From IMG/VR virus record IMGVR_UViG_3300044684_000375, positions 1-26,891 of that record: a stretch of 26,891 nt of DNA. One strand, written 5' to 3'. The first letter of the stretch is position 1, and each line of letters opens with the position of its first letter. The position numbers were made by a program, and so were the translations under genes. Shown piece by piece: positions 2,147 to 19,751 of the stretch. This stretch comes from a virus. Below the pieces are notes generated by a model. That model ran no database searches, had not been told where the DNA came from, and saw nothing but the letters and a program-made list of their open reading frames with translations.

Positions 2147-3556
2147 CTAGTCGTCGAGGACGTTGATGTAGATGACGTTCCTCCGCGGCGAGTAGACGAT
2201 CGGAGTGCCGTAGAGGAGCTGCATCCAGCGCACCGACGCCGCCAGAGTGGCGAGCGGAATCTTGATCATCGGCGCGAGCTGGCGGAACGAGAGGTTCTGC
2301 AGGTTCATCTGAAGCATGAAGGCGTTGGACGTTCCCGGCAGGTTCAGGTTGAGGTCCGTGAACGTCGTGGTCGCCGCACCAGGAACACGCGGCACGGCCA
2401 CCATGAACTGCGCCTGGCCCACCGCCGTGTCGATCGAGCGCGTGCGATAGACGTAGTAGCCGGTTGCCGTGTCCGTACCACCACCATCGGTGATGGTGAC
2501 CGTAACGGAGTCACCCGCCGCCACGACAGCCGACGCATTGCCGTTGGTCGCTGCCGACTCGCCGAAGCGATTGACCGACGTGACACGGTAAAAGTACGTC
2601 GCCGCGTCACCTGCACGGAACTTCGAGCCCGCGATCGGACCCGCGTTGTCCACGACGGTCACCGTAGCCGGCGCCGAAGGCGAACGGCCGGAGGTCGCCG
2701 TCGTCGGAGCCGTCTTGACGGAGTTGTTCTTGCCCGAACGAAGGAAGATGTCGTTCTGGAAGTTGATCAACCCCGCGTTGGTCTGCATGGCCGTGACCGC
2801 GAGGCCCACCTTGCCATCGATCGCGGCGGGCAGGTTCACGCGCTCACGCGGATAGAACTGCTTGGCCACGTCCGAGAGGGCGCGCGGCGCGAGATACAGA
2901 TCGGTCGGAACGCCGTAGTTCTCCACCACGATGTTCGCGCCTTCCTCCAGCGCGTCCTCCGTGAGCGGACCACCACGCATATCGAGCACGTTGTTCGCCG
3001 CCGCCACCGGGTCGTCCGTGATCTGCTTGTACAGACCGTCGAACTCCTCCGGCACGACGAGCGAATTGCCCGAGAACAGCTTGCGCTCGATCGTCTCCAG
3101 CAGCTTCACCGCACCGTTCTGCGTCTCGAGCGCGATGACATTGCCGTGAGCCGGGCGAACGAGCATCTGCGGATGCGTGACTTCCTTCTGGATGCCCATG
3201 AACTTCACCTGGGCAACCTTGCGCTCGTACGTCGCGTCGCTGGCTTGCGGCAGCTCACCCTCGCGAGTGAAGATGCCGGCGTCAGCACCGTAGCTCGATT
3301 GGATGGTGTACTCTTCGACCGTCGAGAAAGCCGGCAGCTTGGGCATCGCGCGCCACAGCTTGATGTTGGCCTGCGTGAACGTCACGATGCGCAGCGTGGC
3401 TTCCAGCGACTCCATTCGGAGCGCAGCACCACCGAACTGGCCAGGGCTCTGGTAGCCGGCGCTGAGCGCTTTGTTGATGTCGTCGACCATGCCGAACGGG
3501 TTCATTCCGAACCCAGCGGCACCTTCGTAATCCTTGAGGCTGACTCCACCGTACAT
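2147..3556 (-). CDS. Major capsid protein, HK97-like fold, with inserted FN3/Ig-like domain
   Basis: 469 aa, ATG start with GAAAGGAGAT upstream. Residues 40-290 carry features of phage capsid subunits of the HK97 group: an N-terminal helix-rich segment, an E-loop-like stretch around residues 83-125 (F-T-R-E-G-E-L-P), then helix A-L-E-T-Q-N-G-A-V-K-L-L-E-T-I-E-R-K-L-F, a spine-like part, and P-T-D-L-Y-L-A-P-R-A. The C-terminus (residues 415-469) ends with Y-S-P-R-R-N-V-I-Y-I-N, like the closing strands of such capsids. Between residues about 293 and 408 lies a domain with Y-F-Y-R-V-T-S-V-N-R-F-G-E-S, the recognisable core of a fibronectin type III/Ig-like fold. Position right after the scaffold candidate and protease agrees. 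Expected in many copies per virion; the terminator behind it fits high expression. Confidence 0.85.
   Translation of the reverse strand: MYGGVSLKDYEGAAGFGMNPFGMVDDINKALSAGYQSPGQFGGAALRMESLEATLRIVTFTQANIKLWRAMPKLPAFSTVEEYTIQSSYGADAGIFTREGELPQASDATYERKVAQVKFMGIQKEVTHPQMLVRPAHGNVIALETQNGAVKLLETIERKLFSGNSLVVPEEFDGLYKQITDDPVAAANNVLDMRGGPLTEDALEEGANIVVENYGVPTDLYLAPRALSDVAKQFYPRERVNLPAAIDGKVGLAVTAMQTNAGLINFQNDIFLRSGKNNSVKTAPTTATSGRSPSAPATVTVVDNAGPIAGSKFRAGDAATYFYRVTSVNRFGESAATNGNASAVVAAGDSVTVTITDGGGTDTATGYYVYRTRSIDTAVGQAQFMVAVPRVPGAATTTFTDLNLNLPGTSNAFMLQMNLQNLSFRQLAPMIKIPLATLAASVRWMQLLYGTPIVYSPRRNVIYINVLDD
2333..2680 (-). other. FN3/Ig-like domain insertion inside the capsid gene
   Basis: This interval encodes residues about 293-408 of the capsid protein. 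It begins with P-A-T-V-T-V-V, runs through Y-F-Y-R-V-T-S-V-N-R-F-G-E-S and G-Y-Y-V-Y-R-T, and ends at F-T-D-L-N-L-N-L-P-G, the strand order of an FN3-like beta sandwich. It separates two capsid-fold segments, so it is an insertion and not a C-terminal extension. Such domains in phage capsids usually project from the outer surface and may bind cell-surface glycans; that role is inference here. Confidence 0.7.
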
Positions 3557-5342: not shown

Positions 5343-6167
5343 CTACGTGTTCAGGAAACTCGCAACGCGGGCAATCCGAGCGCAGACCTCCTCGCTGTAT
5401 TGCGGGCGGATCGCGCGCAGAAACGCCACTGCCTCGCTGAGCGTCATGCCTTTACGCGTATGGCTCAGCAGTCTCGTCTTCTTCTGCTTCTTCCCTCCTT
5501 CGAGGCTTTGGGCGCGCAGGGCCGCGCCACCCGTTCCTCCAGGGTTGGAGTTGCCTGCTGCAAGCGCCTTCTTGAGACGCTTCGCAAACGACTCCTCGAT
5601 CTCGTCCGGTGAAGCGAACGCTTTGGACACGAGGTCCCAAGTACAATCCGTGTTCACAGGGCAGTTCGTCACTGCCACATTACGGACCTTGGCGCGCAGG
5701 ATACGATTATCGTATTCACTGCGCTCCAGAACTTTGCCCTCGATCGAGAAGCCCAGCCGTCGAGGCGTGTTCTTCAGCGCCTTGGCGAGCTGCACAATCT
5801 TTTCCGAGGGAGGATATCCACGGAGTAAGTAGCCCTCCGTGTACCAACCGCGGTCCTCATGCAGCTCCGCTTTTTGGGGGATACCGACGATGTCAACGGT
5901 GCCTTGCTTGTGGTTGTCGTTGAAGTAGCCGTGGTGCACGAATTCGGAGAAGTCGAGGCCTTTCTGAACCACCACCTCGTCTTGGCGATCTACTGACTCT
6001 GTCGAGCAATAGCCCTTGATGGTGTAGCCCGCAGGCACTTTGTTCTCGTCGGAGCTTTCCTCCTCGTCGAGCCCACCCTTGGAAAAATCAAACTCGACGA
6101 CATTGGGCACCCACAGCGAGAACTCGCCCTTGTCGATGATCTCCGAGACGATATGATTTGCCCTCAA
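5343..6167 (-). CDS. Prohead (head maturation) protease, XkdF/HK97-protease-like
   Basis: 274 aa with a TTG start (AAAGGGG 6 nt upstream; no in-frame ATG near). Residues 47-100 have G-Y-T-I-K-G-Y-C-S-T-E-S-V-D-R-Q-D-E-V-V and a conserved-looking His at 86 (N-D-N-H-K-Q). Residues 138-144 read L-G-F-S-I-E-G, the nucleophile segment of phage prohead serine proteases (S141), followed by V-R-N-V-A-V-T-N-C-P-V-N, the usual strand after it. The C-terminal 75 residues form a linker and a helical part (S-E-A-V-A-F-L-R-A-I-R), like the extension of XkdF-type proteins. It should cleave scaffold and capsid termini during head maturation. Its place upstream of scaffold and capsid genes agrees. Confidence 0.85.
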   Translation of the reverse strand: MRANHIVSEIIDKGEFSLWVPNVVEFDFSKGGLDEEESSDENKVPAGYTIKGYCSTESVDRQDEVVVQKGLDFSEFVHHGYFNDNHKQGTVDIVGIPQKAELHEDRGWYTEGYLLRGYPPSEKIVQLAKALKNTPRRLGFSIEGKVLERSEYDNRILRAKVRNVAVTNCPVNTDCTWDLVSKAFASPDEIEESFAKRLKKALAAGNSNPGGTGGAALRAQSLEGGKKQKKTRLLSHTRKGMTLSEAVAFLRAIRPQYSEEVCARIARVASFLNT

Positions 6168-6188: not shown

Positions 6189-7040
6189 CTACGTAAACAC
6201 ATGGGAAGAATCAACTGCCTTGACGATTACCGGGCGCTGCGGTAGCCGACGGAACTGCGTAGCAAACCACTCCTCGTAGGTCGGAAAATCAATAGACCTC
6301 TCAGCCCCCTGGCTCATGATCCGCCACGGAAGACGATGTGGATACTCCTGCACCCACTCCAACCGGCGCATGCAATGCTCTCCGTAGATGGTTGGCAAGA
6401 GTGAGCCGATAGCGTTCACAAAATCCTTCACCGTCAACTTGCCTACCTCCCGCAGCAGAGCGGGGTCGTAGTAATGCCAGTTGAATAGGTACTGATGAAA
6501 CACATTCCGATATCCGCGGAATGTGAGGCCTAAGCAGAAGCTGTTGTCGATGGCGGCGAAGGGGACCGCTCGTTTGGGCCTCACCATCACGTTCTTGCCG
6601 TGGCGGTCACGACTGTTCGCAATGATGTCGAGCATCGTTAGACGCTTCCACGCCTCTTTTGGGGCGGCCTGATAACACACTTTCTTGATGTTGGTGTAGA
6701 AGTCGTCGCGGTCCTTATTGAACACCTTGCTGTCGTACGACCGAACGTGAAAGCCAGGAACCCAAAGCTGCGCGGAGCTGGTCTCACCATCGTGCTTTAT
6801 CTTGTAGGTTTCTGGTACCACGCCAGGGTAGATCAGCTGCGAGACGTGGTACATCGCCTCTTCACGCTCAGGGGCCAATACAGTAGGAAGCTTGCGAAAC
6901 ACACCATCGTGCATCGCGCGCTTGATGATCGCCTTCCACCCGTCAGCATACTCAGCCAATCGAGCGTGAAAGCGCCCCTCTCCGATCTTGGTGACCTTGA
7001 TCGGTTTGGTGGTCTTAACCGCTTTCTCAAATTCGGTCAC
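6189..7040 (-). CDS. PI3/4-kinase/HipA-like kinase-fold protein
   Basis: 283 aa from a GTG that overlaps the TGA of the preceding 61-aa gene (GTGA), with GGGGG about 10 nt upstream. An open frame extends to 7148, but its extra residues lie over that upstream gene and look non-natural. Kinase-type features: W-K-A-I-I-K (K40, candidate ATP lysine), an E-R-E-E-A helix at 59-63, then M-L-D-I-I-A-N-S-R-D-R-H-G-K-N (residues 136-150), which matches the N-x-DRH-x-x-N catalytic loop of PI3/4-kinase and HipA families, and F-A-A-I-D-N-S (D165) as metal-binding Asp. Kinase activity on a protein or small molecule is inferred. It sits between head morphogenesis protein and protease, suggesting a virion or assembly role. 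A degenerate, inactive kinase fold is the main alternative. Confidence 0.65.
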   Translation of the reverse strand: MTEFEKAVKTTKPIKVTKIGEGRFHARLAEYADGWKAIIKRAMHDGVFRKLPTVLAPEREEAMYHVSQLIYPGVVPETYKIKHDGETSSAQLWVPGFHVRSYDSKVFNKDRDDFYTNIKKVCYQAAPKEAWKRLTMLDIIANSRDRHGKNVMVRPKRAVPFAAIDNSFCLGLTFRGYRNVFHQYLFNWHYYDPALLREVGKLTVKDFVNAIGSLLPTIYGEHCMRRLEWVQEYPHRLPWRIMSQGAERSIDFPTYEEWFATQFRRLPQRPVIVKAVDSSHVFT

Positions 7041-7222
7041 AGTGACGGTACCCCCTGCAGCACCTTCTTGCACTGCTCCAGCGCCTGAGTAATGGACTCC
7101 CTGTCCTCGGGTGAAAGGTGTGGAGCAAGTGTGAGGAGGTCCAGCCACACTTCTTTGATGCCCTCCTTCACTTCGTCCACACGTGCCTTTAACACCCGTT
7201 GTTGGTCCATTTTAGTGCTCAC
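7037..7222 (-). CDS. Small helical protein coupled to the kinase-like gene
   Basis: 61 aa from the ATG at 7222, which overlaps the end of the head morphogenesis gene by 11 bp; a second ATG at 7210 would give 57 aa. Sequence is helical and charged (V-L-K-A-R-V-D-E-V-K-E-G-I-K-E-V-W-L-D-L-L, then S-P-E-D-R-E-S-I-T-Q-A-L). Its TGA overlaps the GTG of the kinase-like gene, so the two are probably translationally coupled. No family recognised; it could be a small partner of either neighbour. Confidence 0.6.
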   Translation of the reverse strand: MSTKMDQQRVLKARVDEVKEGIKEVWLDLLTLAPHLSPEDRESITQALEQCKKVLQGVPSL

Positions 7223-8165
7223 ACTCGTGGTCCGCCAAAAGCCGGTCCAGTGCAGACACCTTCAGCGCCTTCTCTAGGCCCTTCCAAACCAGTTTGCCCT
7301 TGTCGTCGAAACCGTACCCTTTCGGCATCTCTTGCAAAGAGCACCGGCAGAATGGATGAACTGAGTCCAATGTCGGCTTCCACTCTGTCGCCGCGGAACC
7401 ACTGAGCGTTGGACGGTTGGCTTTACGATCGTGGTTCGTCCCGTTAGCCACAAGGTCCGACAGCCGGAATACGCGCGGTGTCACCCCATCTTCTTCGAGG
7501 TACAAAATCCGGCAATACGGGCACGCGTCTGGTCGTGGGCGCTTGAACACAAGAGGGTCTTTGTCAGCGGAGCGCTGGCGGATCGCCGCTGCTTTGCCCT
7601 CCTGAATCCAGTTGTTCAATTCTGTGGCTGCAACAATCGTCCAGTCCTTACGAAGGTCGCGCGTAGCTTTCCGCAGACGCGCCGCGATTTCACGCACACC
7701 TTCTCGTCGTGCGGCTCCTTCAGACGTTATCTTGGATATTGCGTGGTCACGTAATCTGCGGATGTGCTTGTCTGCTTCAGCCAAGGCTCTGTGAAACTTC
7801 CGCTGCAGGTCAAGTGACATCCCATTGACATGGCTAACCATGTGGTCTGTCACGTCGCGAACAGTCCTCTGGTCCCGTGCGGATAAGCCGGCCGCAGAAG
7901 AGTTGAGGAAGGCCATAAACGCGCCCAGCGAGATCGTCGCATCATGGTCAGGACCGTGCTTCGCGGCGAGTAGCCCATACTCGTAGGCTCTCTGGATGAG
8001 AGACATACGTGGGGCGGGGAGACGGCCCTTCGAGCGAAGGCGTGACAGCTCCTCTGGAGGGATGGCCACGTCACCACCAAGCTCAACCATAAAAGCAAAA
8101 TGCGTGTCTCGAATAAGGTCGAGGATATCACGCACCTGCTTCCTACTGAGCAGCGACGAGCCCAT
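7212..8165 (-). CDS. Phage head morphogenesis protein (SPP1 gp7/Mu F-like)
   Basis: 317 aa, ATG with AAGGAGGAGC immediately upstream. The N-terminal half is helical (Q-R-K-F-H-R-A-L-A-E-A-D-K-H-I). Residues 175-190 (W-T-I-V-A-A-T-E-L-N-N-W-I-Q-E-G) and the following P-D-A-C-P-Y-C (C215, C218) with S-V-H-P-F-C-R-C-S-L (H270, C273, C275) match the C-terminal zinc-binding domain of Mu F-like/SPP1 gp7 proteins, which associate with the portal and occur in a few copies inside the head. In typical phages this gene follows the portal directly; here about 7 kb of extra genes separates the two. Confidence 0.85.
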   Translation of the reverse strand: MGSSLLSRKQVRDILDLIRDTHFAFMVELGGDVAIPPEELSRLRSKGRLPAPRMSLIQRAYEYGLLAAKHGPDHDATISLGAFMAFLNSSAAGLSARDQRTVRDVTDHMVSHVNGMSLDLQRKFHRALAEADKHIRRLRDHAISKITSEGAARREGVREIAARLRKATRDLRKDWTIVAATELNNWIQEGKAAAIRQRSADKDPLVFKRPRPDACPYCRILYLEEDGVTPRVFRLSDLVANGTNHDRKANRPTLSGSAATEWKPTLDSVHPFCRCSLQEMPKGYGFDDKGKLVWKGLEKALKVSALDRLLADHECEH

Positions 8166-8577
8166 GCTCCTCCTTCACTTGCGCGAGAGACGTGCGCTTC
8201 CACTTGCGAAACTCCAAGATGTGCAATTCAGTGGTACCGAAAAGCTCCATCTTCTTAGTGTCCGAAAGCTTGACGAAGTCATCCTCACCCTTCAGCCAGT
8301 GCGGCACCTCAATACCGAACTTCGCGCACCAGTACCGGAGCGCAGGGCGCACGTGCTCCACGTAGTTCTTGCGTGCGGTAGTGGTATCAGGAACCACGTC
8401 ACGGATGAACGGGCGGTGGTAGTGACGGAGCTGGTGTTTCAGTTCATCCTTGTCTGCGATGTGCACTACCATCGAAGGCGTGATGAGCTTCAAGCGCTCC
8501 CTACCCGTGCGAGCGTCTTTCGTGACCACGGCCTGAAAATGGTCTTCACGAAAATTCCGTCGGTCGATGAAGTTCAC
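8143..8577 (-). CDS. Uncharacterised 144-aa protein between SNF2 helicase and head morphogenesis gene
   Basis: 144 aa from a GTG overlapping the helicase TGA (GTGA), with AAAGGAGGGG 4-10 nt upstream, so it is translationally coupled to the helicase. Its 3' end overlaps the head morphogenesis gene by 23 bp. Features: basic N-terminus (N-F-I-D-R-R-N-F-R-E-D-H-F), a His-rich stretch L-K-H-Q-L-R-H-Y-H-R around residues 46-55, and R-Y-W-C-A-K-F-G-I-E-V-P-H-W-L. No family recognised. It may be a partner of the helicase or a head component. Confidence 0.65.
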   Translation of the reverse strand: MNFIDRRNFREDHFQAVVTKDARTGRERLKLITPSMVVHIADKDELKHQLRHYHRPFIRDVVPDTTTARKNYVEHVRPALRYWCAKFGIEVPHWLKGEDDFVKLSDTKKMELFGTTELHILEFRKWKRTSLAQVKEEHGLVAAQ

Positions 8578-11500
8578 TTGGCCCCTCCTTTACGTGGTTG
8601 CTTCTTCTTGGGCTCTTTCTTCGCTTTGGGCCTTTCTGTCTTCTCGTCGACGGCAGGTGCCTTCTCATGCTCTTCTCGCTTCGCGGGCGCCACATACGGC
8701 GTGGTTTCCACTTTCTTGAGCCACTTGAGCCGAGATTTCAGACGGTCGATCTTCTCTGCAACCTCAGGCTCCTTCTTGTCCAGTTCCTTACTCATTACCT
8801 TGATAAGTGCTTCAACACCCGCAATACGACTACCCAACTGCTCTCGAGCGCGCTTCTCACGCCAGCTTTTACGGTCCTTGGCTTTATCGAACTCAGCCGT
8901 CAGGTGAGGTCCAAGAGTCTTGCGCGCCTCTTGGTTGATAGCCACGTCCGTCAAATTGCGATCAGCAAGCAGAATAGACGCCAGGTCTTCACCTGGCTTC
9001 ATCGACGCAGCAATATCCGCAAAGTTGCGATCGTGCTCTTCCGAATAGAGTTTCCGTGTACGCCGACGATGCTCGTCTGGTGAGATGCCACCCAAAAGCG
9101 CTTTGACCTTCTCGTTGGCGTCATCCTCCCACGTTGCGTCGTCCCCGAGCAGTGCCTCACTGATAACCTGCTTAGCCGCCAGCTTCTCCTCGATGATCGA
9201 GTCGTACGTTCCAGACATCATCATCGAAGTGATGCGAACGTTTCGCTGCTGCTGGATACGCTGCACACGACGCATCGCTTGCAGTTTCTCAGCCGGCGTC
9301 CACGGGTTGTCGAGAAACACCATGTGGTTCGGTTTCTTCTGAAGGTTGAGGCCCGCACCCCCACTCTTCATACCGATGAGCACGATCTTGATCTTGCCGT
9401 TGTTGACCGCTTCCTGTATGTACGCGCGCTCCTCGGGTGAGGCATCCTGGTCAATGACCGCGACCTGATTGTCGGTGTCCACACCAGCCTGGCGCAAGCG
9501 ACGCTGAAGAAGGTCAAACGCCTTTACCGTGGACCCAAAAACCACCACAGGTTCTCCGTCGCGACCCCACCCGCCACTAAAATGCTTCTTGATCTCGTCC
9601 ACTGCCATATCGAGCTTTGGCGCGGGCGAATCCAAGCCATAGGTCGGGTCAATCAGCGCGGGTGAAATCGCAGCCTGACGCTGCAAGGTAACTTTCAACA
9701 GGCGCTTGATCAGCACTGCCTGACGCTCACTCATTGGCTCGTGCGGTTCGAGCTTGCCCTGCTTTCTCCACCGTGACTCGATAATACGGAGACGAGCATC
9801 AGCGATGCGGTCGATGCCTCCGCCAGGCATGAAGTAGTCTCGCTGGCTGAGGTTGTTCTCACCGCGGCGCGTATCAGGCTTCAAGTCGTGCCGCAGCTGT
9901 GACGGAGGAGGTGGCAACCACTCCTTGAGCTGTGGTGCTACGTCTTCGTCGTCCACCTCTTTGATGAAGACGTAGGGCTTCAGACGAGCGCGAAGCTCAG
10001 CCAGCTTGTCAGGATTGGCGATCGTGCGTTTACCAGTCTCCTCATCATAGACGGTGTTGGAGAGGGTCCCCTCCCACTGCGCGCGGTCGCCCACTTTACC
10101 CGGATTGATGAGATTGACGAGGTTGAATGTATCCAACGGCGAGTTGGGCATCGCCGTTCCCGTCATACCTAGAGCGTACTCTTTGTCCTTGAGCAGCTGC
10201 GACAACAGACGATGTCGAACACCGGCTTGCTCGATCTTCTCCGCGCCGCTCTTGTAGCCACCACTGTGAAACTCATCAATGGTGACCATCGAGTTCTCAA
10301 GCTCATTGAGCGTTTCGATCAGCTCGTTGTCCATCCCCTCATCTTCAGCTTCGACGCCAGCCAGACCTTCTTTTGGCTCTGTCAGCGTACCGCTAGACAT
10401 GATGATGAACTTGGCTTGCCGCGCGAAGTCACTACGCAACATCAATTTGCGTTCCTCGAGCGAGTAGGGCGACAGGTCTAACACCTGCTGCGGCGAAATT
10501 CCCGGAGCGTAGGTGCGAATTTCCTCTGGCCACTGTGCCATCAGCCCTGGCGGAAGGATGAGGATGTTGCGCTCGATCTTCCCTTCGTCGAGTAGCCGAC
10601 AGGTCGCGGCAATGACCGTTGCTGTCTTGCCCAACCCCATGTCAAAGCCAAGCAAGCCTCGCTTGACAGTGCCAATCCAGTTGACGCCCTGAGCTTGCCA
10701 CGTAAACGGAGCTGGCTTTATCGTGGTCCCATCTTCACGAGTGAGAGGTTTGTCCCAAAAACCACCCTTCATGAAGGGGCTGAAAGAGAACTTCACGTCC
10801 TCTTGCGACTTGAGAATACGATCGCGCTCGCGCTGTTCCTTGACCAACTCCTCACGGAGCTTCTTCACATCCTTCGGCTTCAGCGTCCCGCTCTGTTCAT
10901 CGAAGAGCTTGTTGAGGCCGACGCTTTGACCGTTGTTGAACTTGTTGGCGCTTGCAGCCACCACAGAGCCAATTTCGTGAAGACGGTTAATGTAGTGCTT
11001 GACCTCTGTAGGAGTGGTGTTGAGCTTCTTCACCAGCTCTTCACGAATGACCTTCTCAGCTTTGGTGGGCTGGGCCTTATCACGAAGCTCGTTATTCCAA
11101 GCATCCTCAGTGTCGAAGTCGCCATTGGGATGCCGCGTCGACGCCATGATCGACGCAATGTACGCGGCACCTAGCTGCACCACGTTCATGCGCTCGACGT
11201 TGACCATCGGACGGTCACCCTCGATGTCCTCCCCCTCACCAGACACTGCGTTCAGATACTCGGTATCCGGTTGCATCGTCCCTTGGAGGTGCAACGTGCC
11301 GTTCGTGTCGTTCTTGGAGCGGCGTCTCTTGGTCTGTCCCTTCTTGGGGATGAACATCAGACCAAGATCGCGCATCACAAGAATTGCTGCTAACGCAGTA
11401 TCCTGGGAGTTCTCACCGTGGGCGAAATCGTCGTACAGAACTTCAGCGTCGTCTTTGGACTTCTCGATGTCGTAATTGTAGTGGTTGACAGCCTGCTCGT

Positions 11501-12386
11501 ACTCCATCGCACGCTGCTTCAGCGCCTCCTGCACAGCCGGCTGCTGAGATGCTTTTTGGTATTTCTCGTTGAGGTCGTCCCAGAGCTTGATAACGTCGTC
11601 TTCCTTGTACCGCTCAGGGTCCGAAGCGACAACGTTCTCAACGAAAAATCGGCGCTGCCAATCGTGCAGGGCCATGTGGTGGCCCTTCTCACCGAACACG
11701 TTCTTTATCTGTGTCTCAGCATGCACCGATTTTTCGTTAATACCTAAATCCTCCAACTCAGGGAGGAACAACTGATTGCGTACGATTTCGATGGTGGCAA
11801 GGTCGTCCTCATCAAACTCACCACTCGCGCGCATCGCCTCCATCGTCTCCTCGTTCTGCCCAAGGAAGATTGATGGGGCGAGTTGCTTCTGAACATGCTC
11901 CGCAACCTCTTCGTCCGAAGCCTCGTGGCTCTCATCGTGACCCGGAGGGGGCTGGGTACCGTAGACGATCTTTCCCGTCTTGGTACGGTAAAATTTGCCA
12001 CCACGAGAACCAGGCTGGCGGACCTCCTCACGCTTCTTCTGTCCTGGAGCTGAAGGCTTCGCAGGCTTGGGCGTTGCCTTCGCCTTGGCTGACGGTGCTT
12101 TGGCTTTTGCCCCAGGAGCGCCCGCTTTCATAAGCGTGTCACTGTGGCCTGTGGATATCGTGAACACTAAAGACTTGTCCACAGTACGCGCGTTTTCCAG
12201 AATATTCGCCAAGCCCTCTTCGAGGTCGGAGATATGGCGGAGATAGCGGTCGCGCACCTCATGAAACAGGTGCGCAGGGACAGGATCGGGAAAGTCGCGC
12301 GGAGTCACACGCAACTGTGCCTTGATGACAAAATCGTCATCGAGAGGCATCCCCTCCAAGAACAGCTTATTGCGGTCTCCAGCCAT
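8574..12386 (-). CDS. Large SNF2-family helicase/ATPase in the head operon
   Basis: 1270 aa, ATG with AAAGGTG upstream. Order: a 1-90 N-terminal part, an Ala/Lys/Pro linker (90-125), the motif G-S-R-G-G-K-F-Y-R-T-K-T-G-K (126-139), a helical region 150-530, then a full two-lobe SNF2 motor. Motor motifs: W-Q-A-Q-G-V-N-W (563-570), Walker A D-M-G-L-G-K-T (582-588), motif II I-D-E-F-H (703-707, with F where DEAH has A), motif III M-T-G-T-A-M-P-N (741-748), motif V G-M-K-S-G-G-A-G-L-N-L (1005-1015) and motif VI Q-A-M-R-R-V-Q-R-I-Q-Q-Q (1036-1047), which departs from the usual QAxGRxHRxGQ. The C-terminus is Lys-rich. It is expected to move along or remodel double-stranded DNA using ATP. Surrounded by head genes, it is plausibly packaged and injected, like P1 DarB; that is inference. 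Confidence 0.88.
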   Translation of the reverse strand: MAGDRNKLFLEGMPLDDDFVIKAQLRVTPRDFPDPVPAHLFHEVRDRYLRHISDLEEGLANILENARTVDKSLVFTISTGHSDTLMKAGAPGAKAKAPSAKAKATPKPAKPSAPGQKKREEVRQPGSRGGKFYRTKTGKIVYGTQPPPGHDESHEASDEEVAEHVQKQLAPSIFLGQNEETMEAMRASGEFDEDDLATIEIVRNQLFLPELEDLGINEKSVHAETQIKNVFGEKGHHMALHDWQRRFFVENVVASDPERYKEDDVIKLWDDLNEKYQKASQQPAVQEALKQRAMEYEQAVNHYNYDIEKSKDDAEVLYDDFAHGENSQDTALAAILVMRDLGLMFIPKKGQTKRRRSKNDTNGTLHLQGTMQPDTEYLNAVSGEGEDIEGDRPMVNVERMNVVQLGAAYIASIMASTRHPNGDFDTEDAWNNELRDKAQPTKAEKVIREELVKKLNTTPTEVKHYINRLHEIGSVVAASANKFNNGQSVGLNKLFDEQSGTLKPKDVKKLREELVKEQRERDRILKSQEDVKFSFSPFMKGGFWDKPLTREDGTTIKPAPFTWQAQGVNWIGTVKRGLLGFDMGLGKTATVIAATCRLLDEGKIERNILILPPGLMAQWPEEIRTYAPGISPQQVLDLSPYSLEERKLMLRSDFARQAKFIIMSSGTLTEPKEGLAGVEAEDEGMDNELIETLNELENSMVTIDEFHSGGYKSGAEKIEQAGVRHRLLSQLLKDKEYALGMTGTAMPNSPLDTFNLVNLINPGKVGDRAQWEGTLSNTVYDEETGKRTIANPDKLAELRARLKPYVFIKEVDDEDVAPQLKEWLPPPPSQLRHDLKPDTRRGENNLSQRDYFMPGGGIDRIADARLRIIESRWRKQGKLEPHEPMSERQAVLIKRLLKVTLQRQAAISPALIDPTYGLDSPAPKLDMAVDEIKKHFSGGWGRDGEPVVVFGSTVKAFDLLQRRLRQAGVDTDNQVAVIDQDASPEERAYIQEAVNNGKIKIVLIGMKSGGAGLNLQKKPNHMVFLDNPWTPAEKLQAMRRVQRIQQQRNVRITSMMMSGTYDSIIEEKLAAKQVISEALLGDDATWEDDANEKVKALLGGISPDEHRRRTRKLYSEEHDRNFADIAASMKPGEDLASILLADRNLTDVAINQEARKTLGPHLTAEFDKAKDRKSWREKRAREQLGSRIAGVEALIKVMSKELDKKEPEVAEKIDRLKSRLKWLKKVETTPYVAPAKREEHEKAPAVDEKTERPKAKKEPKKKQPRKGGAK
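11958..12011 (-). repeat. Short coding motif shared with the 606-aa protein (copy in helicase)
   Basis: Encodes G-S-R-G-G-K-F-Y-R-T-K-T-G-K-I-V-Y-G of the helicase. The related copy at 18616-18669 encodes G-S-R-G-G-R-I-A-Y-Y-T-K-T-G-K-P-V-Y. The plus-strand string TGCCACCACGAGAACCAGG (19 bp) is identical at 11996-12014 and 18654-18672, and CCCGTCTTGGT is shared further on. A common targeting tag or binding motif is likely; recent recombination is also possible. Confidence 0.75.
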
Positions 12387-12408: not shown

Positions 12409-12453
12409 CACAGCAGCCCACTATAATCGTGTTAACCATAGTGGGCTGCTGTG
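12409..12453 (-). promoter_or_regulatory. Perfect 16-bp inverted repeat before the SNF2 helicase gene
   Basis: Arms CACAGCAGCCCACTAT (12409-12424) and ATAGTGGGCTGCTGTG (12438-12453) flank a 13-nt loop holding GTTAACACGA (minus strand). It fills the 74-bp gap between the 339-aa gene and the helicase start. On the minus strand no U tract follows, so it is not a standard terminator. A further GCCCACAG (minus strand), just before the helicase Shine-Dalgarno, could pair with the second arm instead, so an attenuator-like switch or an RNA processing/protein-binding site is possible. Confidence 0.75.
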
Positions 12454-12460
12454 GTCCGTT

Positions 12461-13480
12461 CTACTCCTCGGTCTCTTGCTGAGCCGGCTCCTCATCCGTG
12501 AGGCCTACCTCATCGAGAGGAACGCCGTTCATACGAGCGATCTCCCGAGCGATGGCGTCATCACCGCCAGGACCGTTGGACTTCGTGATGGTCATCAGCG
12601 GCGACTGAAAGCCCTTGGCGTAGCTGCCGACGTTGCCAGCGTTGTTGTGTCGTGGAACGCCGTGCACGCCGCGGGTCGGGGTCTTCGTGCCCGCCTTCGG
12701 CTTGCCGTTGTGGCCAGTTCCGCCACCGTGCATCTCCGTCACCGCCGTGCGGGCAGGCTTCTTCTCGCCGTGCTTCTGCTTGCCCTTCGGAGAACCACCC
12801 ACGCCCTTGCGGTGAATCTCACCCTTCGTCATCGCCTCTTGGACATCGGAGACGGTGATGTCGGATCCGCAATGACGGCATGGGAAGCACTCCTCACCTT
12901 CCTCTTCATCACCACCCTTGGCGACCTCACCGGAAGCGTCAGCAACGGATTCCTCATCCGCCTCCGCCGTCTCCAGCTCCTCACCGCCTTCCGCCTTGGA
13001 AATCTCGTCCGAGGACTCTTCATCCTCATGACGCTTGGCCTTCTTGACTTCGTCGTTCTTCTTGGCCTTGTTGTGGCTTTTGAAGATGCTCTCGAACGTG
13101 CCCTTCATAGTCGTTCCTCCGTTGTAGAGCGATGACACCACATCGCTCACTGTGTTCACTGATTTCCCAACCGCCGAGGAGCGCGGTGTTGGCGCCGCTG
13201 GTCTCGGAGGCGGTGAGGGCTGCTTTGTGCCGGCGACACGAGGCATGGAGCGTCCTCGAGCACGCACGGGTCCTTCGACATCGAATGCCTTGCCAGTACC
13301 TTGAACGTGCGAAGCGACGCCTTCGCTATCGACGGCTTTGCCTTCCTTCTTTTTCTTCTTCGTGAGCCCATGCTTGGAGCGGTATTTATTTACGGTCATA
13401 GCCGCAACACGTTTAGACGATCCAGTGTCACGAATATTCTCGTACATGCGCTCCTGCTTGGGCGTGAAGTAGTCAGGCAT
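12461..13480 (-). CDS. 339-aa head-module protein with conserved N-terminal phage motif and Cys cluster
   Basis: ATG start with GAGGCG upstream. Residues 4-38 (F-T-P-K-Q-E-R-M-Y-E-N-I-R then R-V-A-A-M-T-V-N-K-Y-R) resemble the short helical module of small phage and plasmid proteins that usually read KRERQYEHIK...IAARTVNK. A Pro/Arg linker, a Lys/Asp/Glu-rich middle (140-196) and C-F-P-C-R-H-C-G (C198, C201, C204) follow, then a Gly/His/Lys-rich basic part and an ordered C-terminus. The three-Cys cluster may bind zinc with a nearby His. It resembles the scaffold candidate in its acidic/basic blocks. Function unknown; internal head protein is a reasonable guess. Confidence 0.6.
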   Translation of the reverse strand: MPDYFTPKQERMYENIRDTGSSKRVAAMTVNKYRSKHGLTKKKKKEGKAVDSEGVASHVQGTGKAFDVEGPVRARGRSMPRVAGTKQPSPPPRPAAPTPRSSAVGKSVNTVSDVVSSLYNGGTTMKGTFESIFKSHNKAKKNDEVKKAKRHEDEESSDEISKAEGGEELETAEADEESVADASGEVAKGGDEEEGEECFPCRHCGSDITVSDVQEAMTKGEIHRKGVGGSPKGKQKHGEKKPARTAVTEMHGGGTGHNGKPKAGTKTPTRGVHGVPRHNNAGNVGSYAKGFQSPLMTITKSNGPGGDDAIAREIARMNGVPLDEVGLTDEEPAQQETEE

Positions 13481-14198: not shown

Positions 14199-15155
14199 CT
14201 AGCTCTCCTTGGAATCGCGGGGAGCAGGCCCCGAGGTTGTTGACACCAAAGCATCGTAGACCAACCCGAAGTATTTGGTATCGAGATTGTGTTTGGCCGA
14301 AAACTGCTTGAGCTTGCCAAGCATGAAGCTGATGAACCCCTTTCGTCCGTCCATTTTCGGTGAGGACTGAAATTTAGTGGCAAGCTTACGCAGCGCTGCA
14401 GGGTCTATGTGCAGCACACGCGCGAGCTTGCTAGGGTCCACATACTCCTGCTGTATGGGATCGGGTTGCGGCTGCGGTTTGGACCCTCCTACCTGCTCGC
14501 GCGGCTTCTTCTCTTTTTGCTGCTCTTGTGCCTGCCCTGGCTTCTTCGCCTTCGCTTTTGGTGCCGCGCCAGGTTTGCCCTTCTCATTCGGATAGTCGTA
14601 GCGAACCTTGTTCGCACCCGCTCCCTGCTTTTTGGCAGAGGCTTTGCCCGTCGGTTTGGCCTGCTTGACCTTCTCTTCTTTCGGGTGTGGTAACGCTTTC
14701 TCCACCACACAAACAAACGCGGCTCGCTCCTTCTGAAACAATGCACGCTCGCGTCGCGTGGACTTACCCAAGTCGATCACCAACTCTAGATCCTTCTTGG
14801 ATTCCTGCTGACGAACAAGCCGACTCATTGCTTGCTCACGCTGCATCAGGTTCCCAAAAGTCTCTTGGGCTTTGTCGTAATCACGAGCTTGCTTGTACTG
14901 GAAGCCTTTGCCCGTCATCACGTACCAGTACGCTTTGGGGCCGGCGATAAAGATACCACCATAACCCGTGTCATCCGGGAGTCGACGGACAGAAACGTCC
15001 TCCACACTCAACGACAGCGCAGGGGCCTTCTCTTGAAGGTACTTCTGCACATCACCGCGGATCGGGTCATAGACGAGCTGAGGAAACGTCTCCTGCTTGT
15101 CGTCGACGTGCAGAGGCTTCTTGTTCACAACTGCGAGATTATCTGCAGTGCTCAT
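14199..15155 (-). CDS. 318-aa protein downstream of portal/endonuclease, two domains with charged linker
   Basis: ATG overlaps the stop of the endonuclease-like gene (ATGA). Residues 1-155 form a globular part with Y-W-Y-V-M-T-G-K-G-F-Q-Y (76-87) and a helical stretch R-R-E-R-A-L-F-Q-K-E-R-A. Residues 155-230 are a Lys/Gln/Pro/Ala linker containing K-V-R-Y-D-Y-P-N-E-K-G-K-P (183-195), which recalls the R-Y/K-x-GKP motif of the helicase and 606-aa protein. Residues 235-318 form a helical C-terminal domain (D-P-S-K-L-A-R-V-L-H-I-D-P-A-A-L-R-K-L). Family not recognised; virion-associated by context. Confidence 0.6.
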   Translation of the reverse strand: MSTADNLAVVNKKPLHVDDKQETFPQLVYDPIRGDVQKYLQEKAPALSLSVEDVSVRRLPDDTGYGGIFIAGPKAYWYVMTGKGFQYKQARDYDKAQETFGNLMQREQAMSRLVRQQESKKDLELVIDLGKSTRRERALFQKERAAFVCVVEKALPHPKEEKVKQAKPTGKASAKKQGAGANKVRYDYPNEKGKPGAAPKAKAKKPGQAQEQQKEKKPREQVGGSKPQPQPDPIQQEYVDPSKLARVLHIDPAALRKLATKFQSSPKMDGRKGFISFMLGKLKQFSAKHNLDTKYFGLVYDALVSTTSGPAPRDSKES

Positions 15156-15619
15156 GCGTCCTCACTTGGTGCACGTCTAGACAACGCCTGTTGGCGTCTG
15201 GTCGCCCATCGGCAGTTGCGAGGGGTGTAATTTCCATTCGTTCTTTTGCGGTCAAGGGTGTATCGAGCCGAAGGTCGCCGACCTACGTCTGTTTTGAAAT
15301 TTTCAAAACTCACACGCCACCGCTGACACACAGTGATTCCGCGACCACCATAAATACGATAACTACGGTGTTTGGGATTGTAACAACGCTGAAGCATCCC
15401 GTACCAACTGGTGTACGTCAGCGTGCCTGAACCCCGATGCCGTGTGAACAAACGGCGTGTAGTTTCTTTTCGTAAGCAACCACAGGACCGGCTTCTTTCC
15501 CGCAGCAAATCCGCCTTCCTGACCCTTGCAACAACACCGCACATGCACCGAACCACGCAGTACCGTCCACTAAAAATGGTGGTCACTGTCCAGCGGGTAA
15601 ATTTAGCTCCAACCCGCAT
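15152..15619 (-). CDS. HNH-type homing-endonuclease-like protein
   Basis: 155 aa from the ATG at 15619, which shares its A with the portal TGA (TGATG); a longer open frame to 15715 lies inside the portal gene. The N-terminus has a four-Cys zinc-binding pattern, C-x3-C-x-C-G ... S-C-G-C-L (C21, C25, C27, C46, C48). The C-terminal half carries T-Y-T-S-W-Y-G-M-L-Q-R-C-Y (68-80), Y-G-G-R-G-I (90-95), W-R-V-S-F-E-N-F, and L-D-R-K-R-T-N-G-N-Y-T-P-R-N-C-R-W (122-138), a layout well known from phage HNH/AP2-type free-standing endonucleases. It should cut phage DNA near its own insertion site and thereby spread. Both ends overlap their neighbours by 1-4 bp, so it was inserted or fitted without breaking the operon. 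Confidence 0.8.
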   Translation of the reverse strand: MRVGAKFTRWTVTTIFSGRYCVVRCMCGVVARVRKADLLRERSRSCGCLRKETTRRLFTRHRGSGTLTYTSWYGMLQRCYNPKHRSYRIYGGRGITVCQRWRVSFENFKTDVGRRPSARYTLDRKRTNGNYTPRNCRWATRRQQALSRRAPSEDA

Positions 15620-17454
15620 CACGATCCATCCAACGAGATAAAGAAGTCGCCCATGTCCGACGACTTGTTCAAATCGTTCTTCTTCCGCAGAGAGGCGTGA
15701 ACAGAGGATTCCCAATCTTCGTTGAATACGGGAGTATCCTCGTCCTCCGTCTCCGCGCTCGATTCGTCGTTCTTTTCCTGGATTACCTTCCCAGCGTGCT
15801 GCTCTTCGTCATCGAACGTCTTGGGAGCCCCCTGCGGAGTCTGCACAGCGTTTGGGCGGAACTCGACGGCCTGTTGCTGAGGTTGAGGCTGCTGCCCATT
15901 TCCAGGACCCCCGCCAGGCGCTCCAGGAGCCCCAAGGAGCCCTTGAGGAGGTTGCTGACCGCCAGGAGCGCCCTGAGCCCCTGCAGGAGCACCTTGGGGC
16001 GCTCCTTGCGCCTGCTGCTGCATTAGAGCGCGATTGCCCGTGAACACCGCATTGAGAATGATATCTCCACCCTCAATCGGCTCACGATCGTCTTCCTCAC
16101 GCACCTCGTTGACCGTCTTGTAGTTCTGCACCTCTTTCAGGCGCAGCTCGATAGCCTGCTCTTCCGACTTGGCGTCGAGACCAATAATCTCGATCTCATA
16201 GCGGTCATCGATCTCCCAGATGAGCTGGCGATTGAGAGTGGTAGCTATAAAGCGCAGAAGAGGACGAAGACCGCGGTCTTTGGAGAGCTTCTGTTGCGCC
16301 TCGTTGGTGGTCATGAACATCGGCTGTGACACACCGGCACCACCACGGAGGTCGAAGTTGATCTCGGACGGATCCATCTGGAAGCAGGCACAAGCGACTT
16401 TGATCAAATATTCAAGCCAAACTTGGTAGCCCATTTCCGTGTTACTCAGCTGGAGAGGGAACCACTCCACACCCTCTGCGTTGAGAACCGGCGTACGATG
16501 CGCGTTGGCAACGCCAGCCACTTGCATCGCCCACTGGCGACGAAACGCTTCCAGCTGCTGATTAGGAACGTTGCCTTTGACGTTGAGCAGACCTTTGATG
16601 GTTGCACCGTTGGAGAATTGACGCCTGTTCCATTCCTCCGCCCAAAGATGAGCGGTGATGGTGTTCAGCAGCATCTCCAATTCGGTGTACCCGTACCCAT
16701 ACACATCAATGTTGGCGCGTGGGTTGCGAACACAGAAAGCCAATTCGTCACTCGTGTACTCGTTGACGATCTTCCCATTCACAACCTGTGCATACTTGAC
16801 CGCCTTGCGGGCCTCCTGCACTGAAAGGGGCGTCCCTTTCTTATGCTTCGGATAGGCAATACGCATCGACGCCGATGGAGTAGCAGTGAACGACAGCAGC
16901 TTGCCAGGCTTGCCGTAATCCACCGGCATGCCACGCACCTTCTCGAAGGTGGCCTGGTCCCAGGTGAGTGAATCGCGTACGAACTTCTTGGCGAACATCT
17001 CCAAATCGTCGCGATCACGGTTGTACTCGACACCCGTGTTCAGCAGAAACTTCTGAAGCCTTGCGCAGCGGCGGCGATCACCCGCGCTCATCTTCTTACG
17101 TGTCTGCCAATCTCGTGGTAGCATTTTAAACCCAATGCTGTACTTATTGGGTTGTGGTTGCATAAACGAGATGACTTGTTGGATACGCGTCTGAATGATT
17201 GCGGCAATGACCGGGTCGCGCTCCGTCATTTGAAGGAGCGTGTCATACGTGACCACGCCTGGAGTCTGACGGTACCCGAGCCCCATCGAGTCGAGCATCT
17301 GGAACGGGTCAACGAACCATGACTTTGGTGCGGGCTCGTCCTTCTTTTTGCCCCAACCCACAGAACGCAGGTAGTCCATCGCCTCCTGCGCCTTCTGCAC
17401 GACAACAGGATCGCGGCTGCTAATATCAATAGATTCTGTGGTATCGGTTACCAT
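15619..17454 (-). CDS. Portal protein
   Basis: 611 aa, ATG, 3 nt after the stop of the 606-aa gene. Residues 60-480 have the portal pattern: T-E-R-D-P-V-I-A-A-I-I-Q-T-R (77-90), the helical F-V-R-D-S-L-T-W-D-Q-A-T-F-E-K region, Y-G-Y-G-Y-T-E-L-E-M-L-L near the middle, and F-Q-M-D-P-S-E-I-N-F-D followed by an N-E-A-Q-Q-K-L-S-K-D-R-G helix and the long stem helices, with S-K-x-L-R-P-type residues. Residues 478-528 form a Gly-Ala-Pro-Gln-rich tract and the last 70 residues are acidic. It forms the 12-mer ring at one capsid vertex for DNA passage. The long low-complexity tail is unusual. Confidence 0.85.
   Translation of the reverse strand: MVTDTTESIDISSRDPVVVQKAQEAMDYLRSVGWGKKKDEPAPKSWFVDPFQMLDSMGLGYRQTPGVVTYDTLLQMTERDPVIAAIIQTRIQQVISFMQPQPNKYSIGFKMLPRDWQTRKKMSAGDRRRCARLQKFLLNTGVEYNRDRDDLEMFAKKFVRDSLTWDQATFEKVRGMPVDYGKPGKLLSFTATPSASMRIAYPKHKKGTPLSVQEARKAVKYAQVVNGKIVNEYTSDELAFCVRNPRANIDVYGYGYTELEMLLNTITAHLWAEEWNRRQFSNGATIKGLLNVKGNVPNQQLEAFRRQWAMQVAGVANAHRTPVLNAEGVEWFPLQLSNTEMGYQVWLEYLIKVACACFQMDPSEINFDLRGGAGVSQPMFMTTNEAQQKLSKDRGLRPLLRFIATTLNRQLIWEIDDRYEIEIIGLDAKSEEQAIELRLKEVQNYKTVNEVREEDDREPIEGGDIILNAVFTGNRALMQQQAQGAPQGAPAGAQGAPGGQQPPQGLLGAPGAPGGGPGNGQQPQPQQQAVEFRPNAVQTPQGAPKTFDDEEQHAGKVIQEKNDESSAETEDEDTPVFNEDWESSVHASLRKKNDLNKSSDMGDFFISLDGS
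15871..16023 (-). other. Collagen-like/Gln-rich low-complexity tract in portal C-terminus
   Basis: Encodes portal residues 478-528, made almost wholly of Gln, Gly, Ala and Pro with repeated Q-G-A-P and G-A-P-G units. It lies after the conserved portal core and before an acidic tail. It is likely disordered and might contact DNA or internal proteins; role inferred. Confidence 0.7.
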
Positions 17455-17457
17455 CGG

Positions 17458-19278
17458 TTAGTGCCTCGCCAACTCACCCGGCAAAACCGGCTTGTAGGGA
17501 CCGCTATTTGGAGACGGTGGCATGTTCGGCGTTGGCTTCGGCGGTTGGGGCGGAGGGGTTGGCGCAACACCACCGATGGTGTCTCCATCTCCCGTCTTCG
17601 TACGAGCCTTGCCCGCTTTTTTGTTACCACGCCCTTTGCTGAACAGCTCTGCGAACGACTTCTTCGCCTTCTTCTTCGACTTTCCCGCCACAGGAGCTTG
17701 GGCAGTCTTGGGCTGATTAGGTGGAGGGGGCCGCGGACTGGGAGGTGGATCGTCCGCACGAATCGGCTTCTGTCCTGACGGGTGGTACCAATCCTTGCGC
17801 AACTCATCACCCTTGAACAGGTCAGCAAACGTCCGCACCTCTGACTTGATCGAGTCAGCCTGCTTGTAGGCTTTCGCGCGCTTCTTGGCGTTATCTTGCC
17901 GATGACGCGCAAGCTTCAATTCCAACTTGCGCTTCTCGTGAGCGATACGGTCGCGCTTCAGCCAAAGCTTGTCGTAGCCGTCTTCAGCCGGTGCGGGCTT
18001 GGGCGTCGCCGCTTCCTTCTCACGCTTCTTCAATCGCATCTCATCGAGCGCAAGATCACGCTCACACAAGGCCACAGCATGGTCGAAAAATGGTGTGTCC
18101 TGAAACTGCGACAACCAATCTTCCCCATACATCGCCTTGTTGAGAGCGTCGATCTCCTTCGGCGTCCGCTCAGCTTTGGCCAACAGCGCGTCAACTTTCT
18201 CTCGTGACATCGAGCGATGAACAGTCGCCTCTTGACCACGCTTGTGTGTCGGCTGGTGAAGAACAGGAGACCCGATCTTCCGTCGCCAATTTCGCTCGTG
18301 CGGATTGATGTGCTCGTCATCTTCCGGCGAATGCCAGCCCACCATTTGCTTGATCTTGTCGTGGTGCTCGTCCACCCACTTCGTAGTCTTCGAGCGATGC
18401 TTCAGCTTCTTGAGCTTCTGCATATGCTCGTGGGCGATCTCCATTGCCGCATGAGACGCTTCGGAGTTGCCGTTGTGGTGATGCAGAAAGGCCGCCACGT
18501 GACCATGCTTCGACGCCAACGCGTGATCTTCACCGTGCTTGGAATGCTTGGCGTTGTGATGCCAGTTGTGCATCACCTTGTGGGCCTGGGCAGCCATGTG
18601 CTGCACCTTTGACGTGTACACAGGCTTGCCCGTCTTGGTGTAGTAGGCAATTCTGCCACCACGAGAACCAGGACCACGGCTAGACTTCTCCATAAGGTCG
18701 TCGAACGCGGACCCGAGCAACGCTACGACCGCCTCTTCGGAATAGGCGAAGCGGAAACGCGGAGAGAGGTTGGCATACAGTTCGTGGACTACACGCGGGT
18801 TGAATGGCTTGTCGCATCCGCACGACCCACCCTTCACAAGGCTCGCCAACGAACGATTGACCGTCCCGCTCGTGGGTCCAATTGCGTGAACACTACAATT
18901 GGAGGCGGACTTTGCCATATGGGCTTGAGCAGCACTTGACAAGACCGCCGCGAGCTGTGGCGCCTCGTCACCCAAGAACTCGATGGGCGTGGCACCCAAA
19001 CTGGTATTGTTGGCCGTCTTGTCGTGGCCCGCCACAACCTGAGCTGCCCCAACCGTAGGACCAGCGCCAGGCGTACCCGGCTTGAGCTGTGCCAGTGGTG
19101 CATAACCCAGATGTGGCTCGCTTCCATCACCGCAAGAGGACGGCATCAGCGCCGTCAGGCAAACGCTCTTGTTGGTCTCGTAGTGAAGGCAGCCATGGCA
19201 CTTCTTGTTCCACGGAACCACACGAGCCATGAAATTCGTGCTGCTGGCCGTCGCGGTGTCTGAAGACTTGCTGTTCAT
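17458..19278 (-). CDS. 606-aa Cys/His-rich protein encoded before the portal
   Basis: Start set at the ATG at 19278, with AAGGAG 6 nt upstream; the frame is open to 19362 but crosses the previous gene. Features: N-terminal Cys group C-H-G-C (27, 30), C40 and S-S-C-G-D-G (C49), a pattern that could hold zinc; S-C-G-C (152-155); the shared motif R-G-P-G-S-R-G-G-R-I-A-Y-Y-T-K-T-G-K-P (201-219); a strongly His-rich segment (227-330, e.g. H-N-W-H-H-N-A-K-H); a Lys/Arg-rich coiled-coil-like part (425-500); and a Pro-rich tail. It may be an internal virion or portal-associated protein. No named family. Confidence 0.6.
   Translation of the reverse strand: MNSKSSDTATASSTNFMARVVPWNKKCHGCLHYETNKSVCLTALMPSSCGDGSEPHLGYAPLAQLKPGTPGAGPTVGAAQVVAGHDKTANNTSLGATPIEFLGDEAPQLAAVLSSAAQAHMAKSASNCSVHAIGPTSGTVNRSLASLVKGGSCGCDKPFNPRVVHELYANLSPRFRFAYSEEAVVALLGSAFDDLMEKSSRGPGSRGGRIAYYTKTGKPVYTSKVQHMAAQAHKVMHNWHHNAKHSKHGEDHALASKHGHVAAFLHHHNGNSEASHAAMEIAHEHMQKLKKLKHRSKTTKWVDEHHDKIKQMVGWHSPEDDEHINPHERNWRRKIGSPVLHQPTHKRGQEATVHRSMSREKVDALLAKAERTPKEIDALNKAMYGEDWLSQFQDTPFFDHAVALCERDLALDEMRLKKREKEAATPKPAPAEDGYDKLWLKRDRIAHEKRKLELKLARHRQDNAKKRAKAYKQADSIKSEVRTFADLFKGDELRKDWYHPSGQKPIRADDPPPSPRPPPPNQPKTAQAPVAGKSKKKAKKSFAELFSKGRGNKKAGKARTKTGDGDTIGGVAPTPPPQPPKPTPNMPPSPNSGPYKPVLPGELARH
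18616..18669 (-). repeat. Short coding motif shared with helicase (copy in 606-aa protein)
   Basis: Encodes G-S-R-G-G-R-I-A-Y-Y-T-K-T-G-K-P-V-Y. The other copy is at 11958-12011 in the SNF2 helicase; 19 bp are identical at DNA level (18654-18672 here). Confidence 0.75.
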
Positions 19279-19295
19279 AGCGGGCTCCTTTGTCT

Positions 19296-19751
19296 CTACG
19301 CCGCGAAGACCACCGTCACGTTTGCCGGTGCTCCGTTGAGAGGTGTTGGATTCTGTATCCACAAGTCCAATCCGGCAGTCAGAGCAGTCCTGAGGGTGAG
19401 CTGTGCTTTGTTCGGAGGAAGAAGCTGCCCTGGCGTTGGAGCGGGAACTTGTTGTTGCTGAGGAACGATGGGGATGGGAGTCGCGCCAACAGGATTGCCG
19501 TTTGTTGAATTCAGCAGAATATTGATCTGCGTGTCTGTCTCGATATAGAGATACGTGGGTGCCACGCCGTCAAACGAGACACGCTGGTAAGCGCCGCTCG
19601 GACCCACAGCAGGAAGGACGAGATTCTTCGGCGCCCCCTGAGCCACATTCGAGTCGTCCATCACATACGGATTCAGACGATTGTCGAACGTGACCTCTTC
19701 GAGACCCGAGTCTATTGAGAGCGTGAAGGTCGATTTGATATAGACGCGCAT
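19296..19751 (-). CDS. Beta-rich small structural protein (decoration/fibre candidate)
   Basis: 151 aa, ATG with AGTAGGAGG 5 nt upstream; the upstream gene's stop (TAG) lies inside this Shine-Dalgarno. N-terminal beta part (V-Y-I-K-S-T-F-T-L-S-I) and Y-L-Y-I-E-T-D-T-Q-I-N-I-L-L-N-S, then a Pro/Gln linker (I-V-P-Q-Q-Q-Q-V-P-A-P-T-P) and a final N-V-T-V-V-F-A-A strand. It lacks charged clusters. Probably a virion component; no family named. Confidence 0.55.
   Translation of the reverse strand: MRVYIKSTFTLSIDSGLEEVTFDNRLNPYVMDDSNVAQGAPKNLVLPAVGPSGAYQRVSFDGVAPTYLYIETDTQINILLNSTNGNPVGATPIPIVPQQQQVPAPTPGQLLPPNKAQLTLRTALTAGLDLWIQNPTPLNGAPANVTVVFAA

Follow-up and report, generated by a model that had tools for sequence, protein, structure and literature searches.

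A head-cluster SNF2 protein of an uncultivated SPO1-like phage as a candidate two-part virion cargo

Introduction

SNF2 motors remove proteins from double-stranded DNA, and the addresses that load proteins into phage heads are so far known mainly from the internal proteins of T4 and the DarB N-terminus of phage P1. Phage late regions are already known to encode SNF2 proteins. One of them, P1 DarB, enters the head by means of its N-terminal 30 residues and is believed to pass from there into the host cell (PMC9024508). The darB-ulx arrangement is also present in the Thermus phages Lalka (PMC11437467). A broader class, the polyvalent proteins, was predicted to be packaged and injected (Iyer et al. 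2017, PMC5512222). The same paper, with the references there, describes SNF2 motors as traveling along duplex DNA without unwinding it.

Here we describe a very large SNF2 protein encoded in the head gene cluster of an uncultivated phage. Similar to P1 DarB, its gene lies by a portal gene and is followed by a gene for an approximately 145-aa protein. Like the polyvalent proteins of PMC5512222, it is a large late-region protein encoded near portal and MuF genes, and its SNF2 domain belongs to their repertoire, which also includes ART, RelA/SpoT, InPase and other domains. As with polyvalent genes, its neighbours are late virion genes, here in a tailed phage of the portal type. Polyvalent proteins combine at least two distinct domains in a chain, usually with several activities; the protein described here has a single recognised enzymatic module, the SNF2 motor, next to its head-cluster module, and a relative adds an ADP-ribosyltransferase.

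Results

The sequence analysed here, referred to as the window, is the whole 26,891-nucleotide stretch of a 26.9-kb uncultivated viral record. The SNF2 ATPase gene (P0001; 8574..12386, minus strand, as are all genes and protein segments of the window given below) is a real gene that starts with ATG, lies within an SPO1-like head gene cluster and encodes a 1270-aa protein with an N-terminal head-cluster module, an SNF2 motor and a basic C-terminal tail. Both Pfam matches exceed their curated cut-offs (SNF2-rel_dom, 1.5e-15, residues 564-805; Helicase_C, 6e-12, residues 940-1044), the protein matches PHROG 62 "DNA helicase" at 1.4e-63, and the PHROG DarB profile aligns to the second motor lobe at 1e-9. 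By these Pfam and PHROG matches, residues ~520-1094 belong to the SNF2 superfamily. The motor itself (9105..10715, residues 558-1094) has two RecA-like lobes, and solved SNF2 structures align across both. SsoRad54 and bacterial SNF2 translocases (PDB 1z63) share this core and its motifs, but only the motor aligns.

We found the full catalytic set: motif Q/0 (TWQAQGVNW, 562), motif I or Walker A (DMGLGKT, residues 582-588; 10623..10643), Ia (611), II (DEFH, residues 704-707; 10266..10277), III (MTGTAMP, 741), IV (947), V (1001) and VI (QAMRRVQRIQQ, residues 1036-1046; 9249..9281). With two RecA-like lobes and motifs I-VI, including GKT, DExH, TGT/TAT and R..R, the protein has the sequence features of the SNF2/Swi2 superfamily 2 ATPases. 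Open reading frame, profiles and motifs all agree with the first-pass annotation, which had called a 1270-aa SNF2 ATPase with its main motifs visible. That annotation also read motifs II and VI as departures from consensus. DEFH is ordinary, since it fits the SF2 DExH consensus and relatives carry DEVH, DEAH or DEIH. Motif VI does differ from the usual R-x-G-Q in its Q-R-I-Q-Q-Q run, but both catalytic arginines are retained; the counterpart in contig L002 reads QSIARVQRLQQ, and more distant members read QAxGRxWRxGQ. The catalytic motifs are unbroken in every complete motor-bearing member. Compared with the L002 counterpart (72% identity), the gene has a dN of 0.21 and a dS of 1.62, the latter near saturation, which indicates that it encodes a protein under purifying selection.

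Along the direction of transcription the cluster reads g634 (17458..19362, carrying the tag described below), portal (15619..17454), g318 (14199..15155, a conserved head-cluster gene), g297, g339 (12461..13480, the conserved upstream neighbour of the SNF2 gene), SNF2, g144, a MuF/SPP1 gp7-like head morphogenesis gene (7212..8165), a putative PI3K/HipA-like kinase gene (6189..7148), the head maturation protease gene (5343..6167; phrog_1028, 1e-53), g112, g122, g333 and the major capsid gene (2147..3556). The closest relatives of the portal (40-44% identity) and capsid (36-39%) proteins are those of SPO1-like Herelleviridae, and the MuF, protease and tail-completion-like proteins also match the SPO1-like type; the MuF protein is 30% identical to the protein encoded upstream of the Goe26 portal gene. 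In Goe26, MuF precedes the portal and there are no cargo genes from portal to protease, whereas in the window the putative cargo region is inserted there. The kinase has the invariant K, RDRHxxN and DN, and its true start is probably inside the frame. It is kept between MuF and protease in all relatives of the cluster, no match was found in 50,697 isolate phage records, and we count it as another candidate for a cargo enzyme.

Between g339 and the SNF2 gene, just upstream of the latter, lies a perfect 16-bp inverted repeat (12409..12453) with an RNA fold of -38.8 kcal/mol (z -7). No T-run follows it and it is absent from L002; it is possibly a control or processing element. Because this strong hairpin separates the two genes, a single transcript across both is not to be assumed. 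Elsewhere in the window, a perfect 13-bp inverted repeat just past the capsid gene (2092-2127) is a likely terminator or processing hairpin. A 187-aa frame between g318 and the portal gene (15152-15715, minus strand) overlaps the 3' end of the latter; on visual inspection it looks like an HNH homing endonuclease (YGGRGI-VC-RW...NCRWAT), and L002 has no space for it. A ParB-like protein is encoded at 20207-21040 (minus strand), upstream of the head genes, and contig L013 has a ParB-like gene in the same place.

The SNF2 gene is coupled to g144 (8143..8577), which encodes a 144-aa protein of no known family. On the coding strand the junction reads ...GCCAAGTGAACTTC..., where the TGA that ends the SNF2 frame and the GTG start of g144 overlap. 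The first-pass annotation had noted this GTGA overlap, which is present, but had assigned it to the head morphogenesis gene; the coupled gene is g144, and the MuF-like gene comes one further on, overlapping g144 by 23 nt. Across related phages, g144 directly follows the N-terminal module whether or not a motor is present, with an overlap or a gap of ≤4 nt in both forms, while L002 has a small zinc-ribbon frame between the SNF2 gene and g144. The AlphaFold model of g144 is poor (pLDDT 55), and nothing known matched it structurally. As a counterpart of P1 Ulx, g144 agrees in size and position, but there is no sequence or profile similarity and the model is too poor to settle the matter by structure; BLASTP, hhalign and Foldseek with that model all gave no match, and g144 is not recognisable as Ulx by these searches.

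DarB was the right precedent for the first-pass annotation to name (PMC9024508, PMC5512222), yet identity with DarB fails on the features tested. The window protein lacks the N6-adenine methyltransferase that DarB has: Pfam found no methyltransferase in it or in its relatives from L097, L119 and L128, although the same search detected the N6_Mtase of DarB at 1.4e-7 as a positive control. A hidden methyltransferase was ruled out by this controlled search together with a mostly helical model of residues 1-520. A scan for [DNS]PP[YFW] was dropped as a methyltransferase test because DarB itself fails it. The N-terminus of the window protein is a different module of ~500 aa that carries a tag, whereas that of DarB is unrelated; comparison of DarB 1-780 with a 21-member N-terminal profile by hhalign gave a probability of 0.9%, i.e., no match. 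Finally, P1 darB has its own transcription, running divergently to that of the portal gene, which differs from the arrangement here, and the partner g144 has no detectable similarity to Ulx. Our data indicate that the window protein is not a DarB, though it could act like DarB all the same.

We next describe the relatives of the SNF2 protein. Contigs with shared gene order were recovered with four queries (the SNF2 protein, portal, N-terminal module and kinase), which gave approximately 20 distinct uncultivated phage contigs with the conserved order portal-g318-(g339)-N-terminal protein-g144-MuF-kinase-protease-capsid. The search for this order in other phages, which the first-pass annotation had proposed, thus found shared head-cluster synteny, and every close relative lies in the head cluster and none in a replication module. 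No relatives were found in two scans, for prophage and host copies, of 84,980 species genomes. The slot ahead of g144 is always occupied by a homologue of residues 1-~500. The motor is present in nine cases (the window, L002, L096, L097, L098, L100, L108, L119 and L128), with the L108 protein cut by the locus end while its open frame continues. Eleven contigs (L012, L013, L099, L101, L103, L106, L114, L115, L122, L123 and L124) encode motorless proteins of 460-482 aa. L105 (631 aa) stands between the two forms; only a fragment of the motor is left in it, residues 534-625, which correspond to the part directly following motif III, and it lacks motifs I-III and the second lobe. Duplicates (L014, L104, L116, L118 and L125) and two fragments from the lineage of L002 (L003 and L004) were left out of these counts. 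No motor relocated elsewhere was found in the motorless contigs, which are fragments. A more distant, tag-bearing SNF2 protein (L107:7941-11477) has its Walker A motif interrupted by an intein-like sequence (GVEYVGVKS...FIVTHNT).

A maximum likelihood tree built from MuF, kinase and protease (849 columns, LG+G4 model, 1000 ultrafast bootstrap replicates), whose root rests on the single distant outgroup Goe26, places the motorless forms in one clade (support 98), with L105 as its sister (97), nested inside motor-bearing lineages. From this nesting, the simplest reading of the sequences is that the motor was ancestral and was erased within one clade, in which the N-terminal part, the tag and g144 were kept. 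The motor fragment of L105 independently supports loss over gain. L124, which lacks motor, tag and g144, may represent a second loss; its placement is weak (66).

The stand-alone proteins occupy the same operon position in the sister phages and are homologous to residues 3-510 of the window protein (hhalign profile comparison, global E 5e-15). Judged by sequence, the N-terminal module (10887..12386, residues 1-~500, mostly helical) is a head-cluster protein family in its own right. It has a conserved N-terminus, D-LF--G--L--D--IKAQLR, and contains a 22-residue tag, PGSRGGKFYRTKTGKIVYGTQP (11949..12014, residues 125-146), with the pattern PG[SAT][RK]GGK[WF][YW]R---G-[IV]-YG in 20 of 21 family members, a conservation that is partly biased since the tag served as search pattern in one scan for the module. 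The window, L002, L012 and L013 were recovered independently of the tag, and the kinase scan, in which the tag played no part either, added L114, L115, L119, L122, L123 and L128. The sole member without the tag is L124. The AlphaFold model of the module is poor (pLDDT 56), otherwise helical with a predicted beta hairpin exactly at the tag, and this low-confidence model matched no known structure. No homologue of the module was found in isolate phages at the sensitivity used, and the tag gave only insignificant matches there. The GGAALRxxSLE cleavage motif common to capsid and protease is absent from the SNF2 protein.

The tag is not confined to this family. A second tag-bearing protein of the window is g634, with PGSRGGRIAYYTKTGKPVY at residues 231-249, and related tags occur in g339-like proteins of L096 and L098 and in L108 and L119. 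Enzymes of these head clusters that are otherwise unrelated have the tag or look-alikes (GPRGGKWAD, HKYIKRxGxPG and FGGRxYIKT), and look-alikes are also present in unrelated large proteins close to the portals of other SPO1-like clusters. Near the portal the tag was found in 25 of 535 genes compared with 1 of 182 (Fisher p 0.004; 0.012 excluding the family itself), an enrichment that is a lead rather than proof, since the pattern was composed after seeing examples.

Related head clusters repeatedly hold other effectors at this place, which supports the late, head-linked setting emphasized by the first-pass annotation. In L119 (3728-8695), the N-terminal module, SNF2 motor and, behind the motor, an ADP-ribosyltransferase (PF03496, 1.4e-13) form one 1655-aa head-cluster protein; a precedent for such an effector activity is the virion-delivered Alt of T4 (PMC5512222). 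L034 (11883-17570) encodes, immediately after the portal gene, a 1895-aa protein with RelA/SpoT and SNF2 domains, seemingly a separate instance of an SNF2 motor next to a portal gene. Beside the portal or MuF, other SPO1-like clusters have a PARP domain (L017) or NUDIX domains (L043 and L079), and in L018 MuF is fused to a C39 peptidase, PAPS reductase and InPase. This range of effectors is the repertoire of polyvalent proteins, which are predicted to be carried into the host along with the DNA (PMC5512222).

Discussion

We propose, at a probability of roughly 55%, that the SNF2 protein is a late, head-associated cargo of two parts, a resident N-terminal module and an SNF2 payload used in the new host, and so an effector of the polyvalent-protein type. 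Residues 1-~500, with their conserved N-terminus and RGG tag, would most likely attach to or inside the prohead with the coupled g144. Residues ~511-1270, an SNF2 double-stranded-DNA translocase, would be carried as payload and would most likely exit the head together with the genome. In the new host the motor would run on incoming DNA and displace or block DNA-bound host proteins, e.g., restriction enzymes, a step modelled on the proposal for P1 DarB. Since SNF2 motors move on duplex DNA without unwinding it, clearing incoming DNA of restriction enzymes, or of other host proteins bound to it, would be the most plausible task. The sequences themselves show the identity of the motor, its unbroken motifs, its place in the head cluster, the stand-alone N-terminal family and the disappearance of the motor with the rest retained; it is packaging, ejection, antirestriction and a target of this kind that we infer, and the "chromatin-like protein" target raised by the first-pass annotation is speculation. 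Several results count against the proposal: the SNF2 protein lacks the GGAALRxxSLE motif, the models of the N-terminal module and g144 are poor and match nothing known, isolate phages gave no homologue of the module at the sensitivity used, and the strong upstream hairpin may divide the transcription unit.

The main rival to head cargo is a late motor that acts in the producing cell, stripping proteins from progeny DNA or aiding packaging at the portal, and that either remains in the cell or exits the head before it is finished. SNF2 motors displace proteins from double-stranded DNA, and a gene placed between portal and capsid genes suits such a role, though location by itself fits virion cargo equally. 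However, a head-filling motor should not vanish while portal, MuF, protease and capsid stay; one clade has dropped its motor yet retains every head gene, and the L124 lineage is motorless as well, which weakens this explanation. The ADP-ribosyltransferase extension of L119 also fits a host target better, and we consider action in the producing cell unlikely. True DarB-type antirestriction, in which injected DNA would be shielded in cis from type I restriction and g144 would play the part of Ulx, would account for a head-cluster SNF2 gene followed by a gene for a ~145-aa protein, as in P1 darB and ulx (146 aa), and for the DarB profile match to the second motor lobe. It is quite improbable given that neither the window protein nor three relatives have a methyltransferase in a search that detects that of DarB, that neither the N-terminal module nor g144 matches its P1 counterpart, and that darB and the portal gene diverge in P1.

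A RapA-like helicase for transcription recycling or recombination that sits in the late region by chance is very hard to credit. The label of PHROG 62 and the 738-aa "rapA" located 6 kb ahead of the portal gene in the SPO1-like phage Goe26 point in that direction, but the similarity to Goe26 "rapA" is 23% and confined to the motor, and close relatives of the window protein all lie between portal/g318 and MuF with a head-cluster N-terminus. There was no NCBIfam RapA match to the window protein at 1e-3. The two-part cargo reading would explain the pattern of loss, since an activity needed only against some hosts could be lost in one clade with the rest kept. Given that some sister phages lost the motor and kept the rest, the motor looks like an optional virion-carried tool for the period just after infection.

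As far as the literature was searched, the stand-alone N-terminal family, the documented motor loss and the conserved tag are new; the available text of PMC5512222 makes no mention of a separable resident N-terminus with motorless homologues and a shared tag. The RGG tag, possibly together with the N-terminal KAQLR segment, could conceivably be a portable head-entry signal with an exchangeable payload and a kept address, an idea that we hold only tentatively. If true, these phages would own a modular cargo-loading code. The tag also offers a candidate address, short and open to testing, by which proteins may be loaded into phage heads. The same head-cluster protein with a motor, with a decaying motor and without a motor provides a natural experiment for virion-carried motors, in which comparison tells what is retained for its position among the head genes from what is optional payload.
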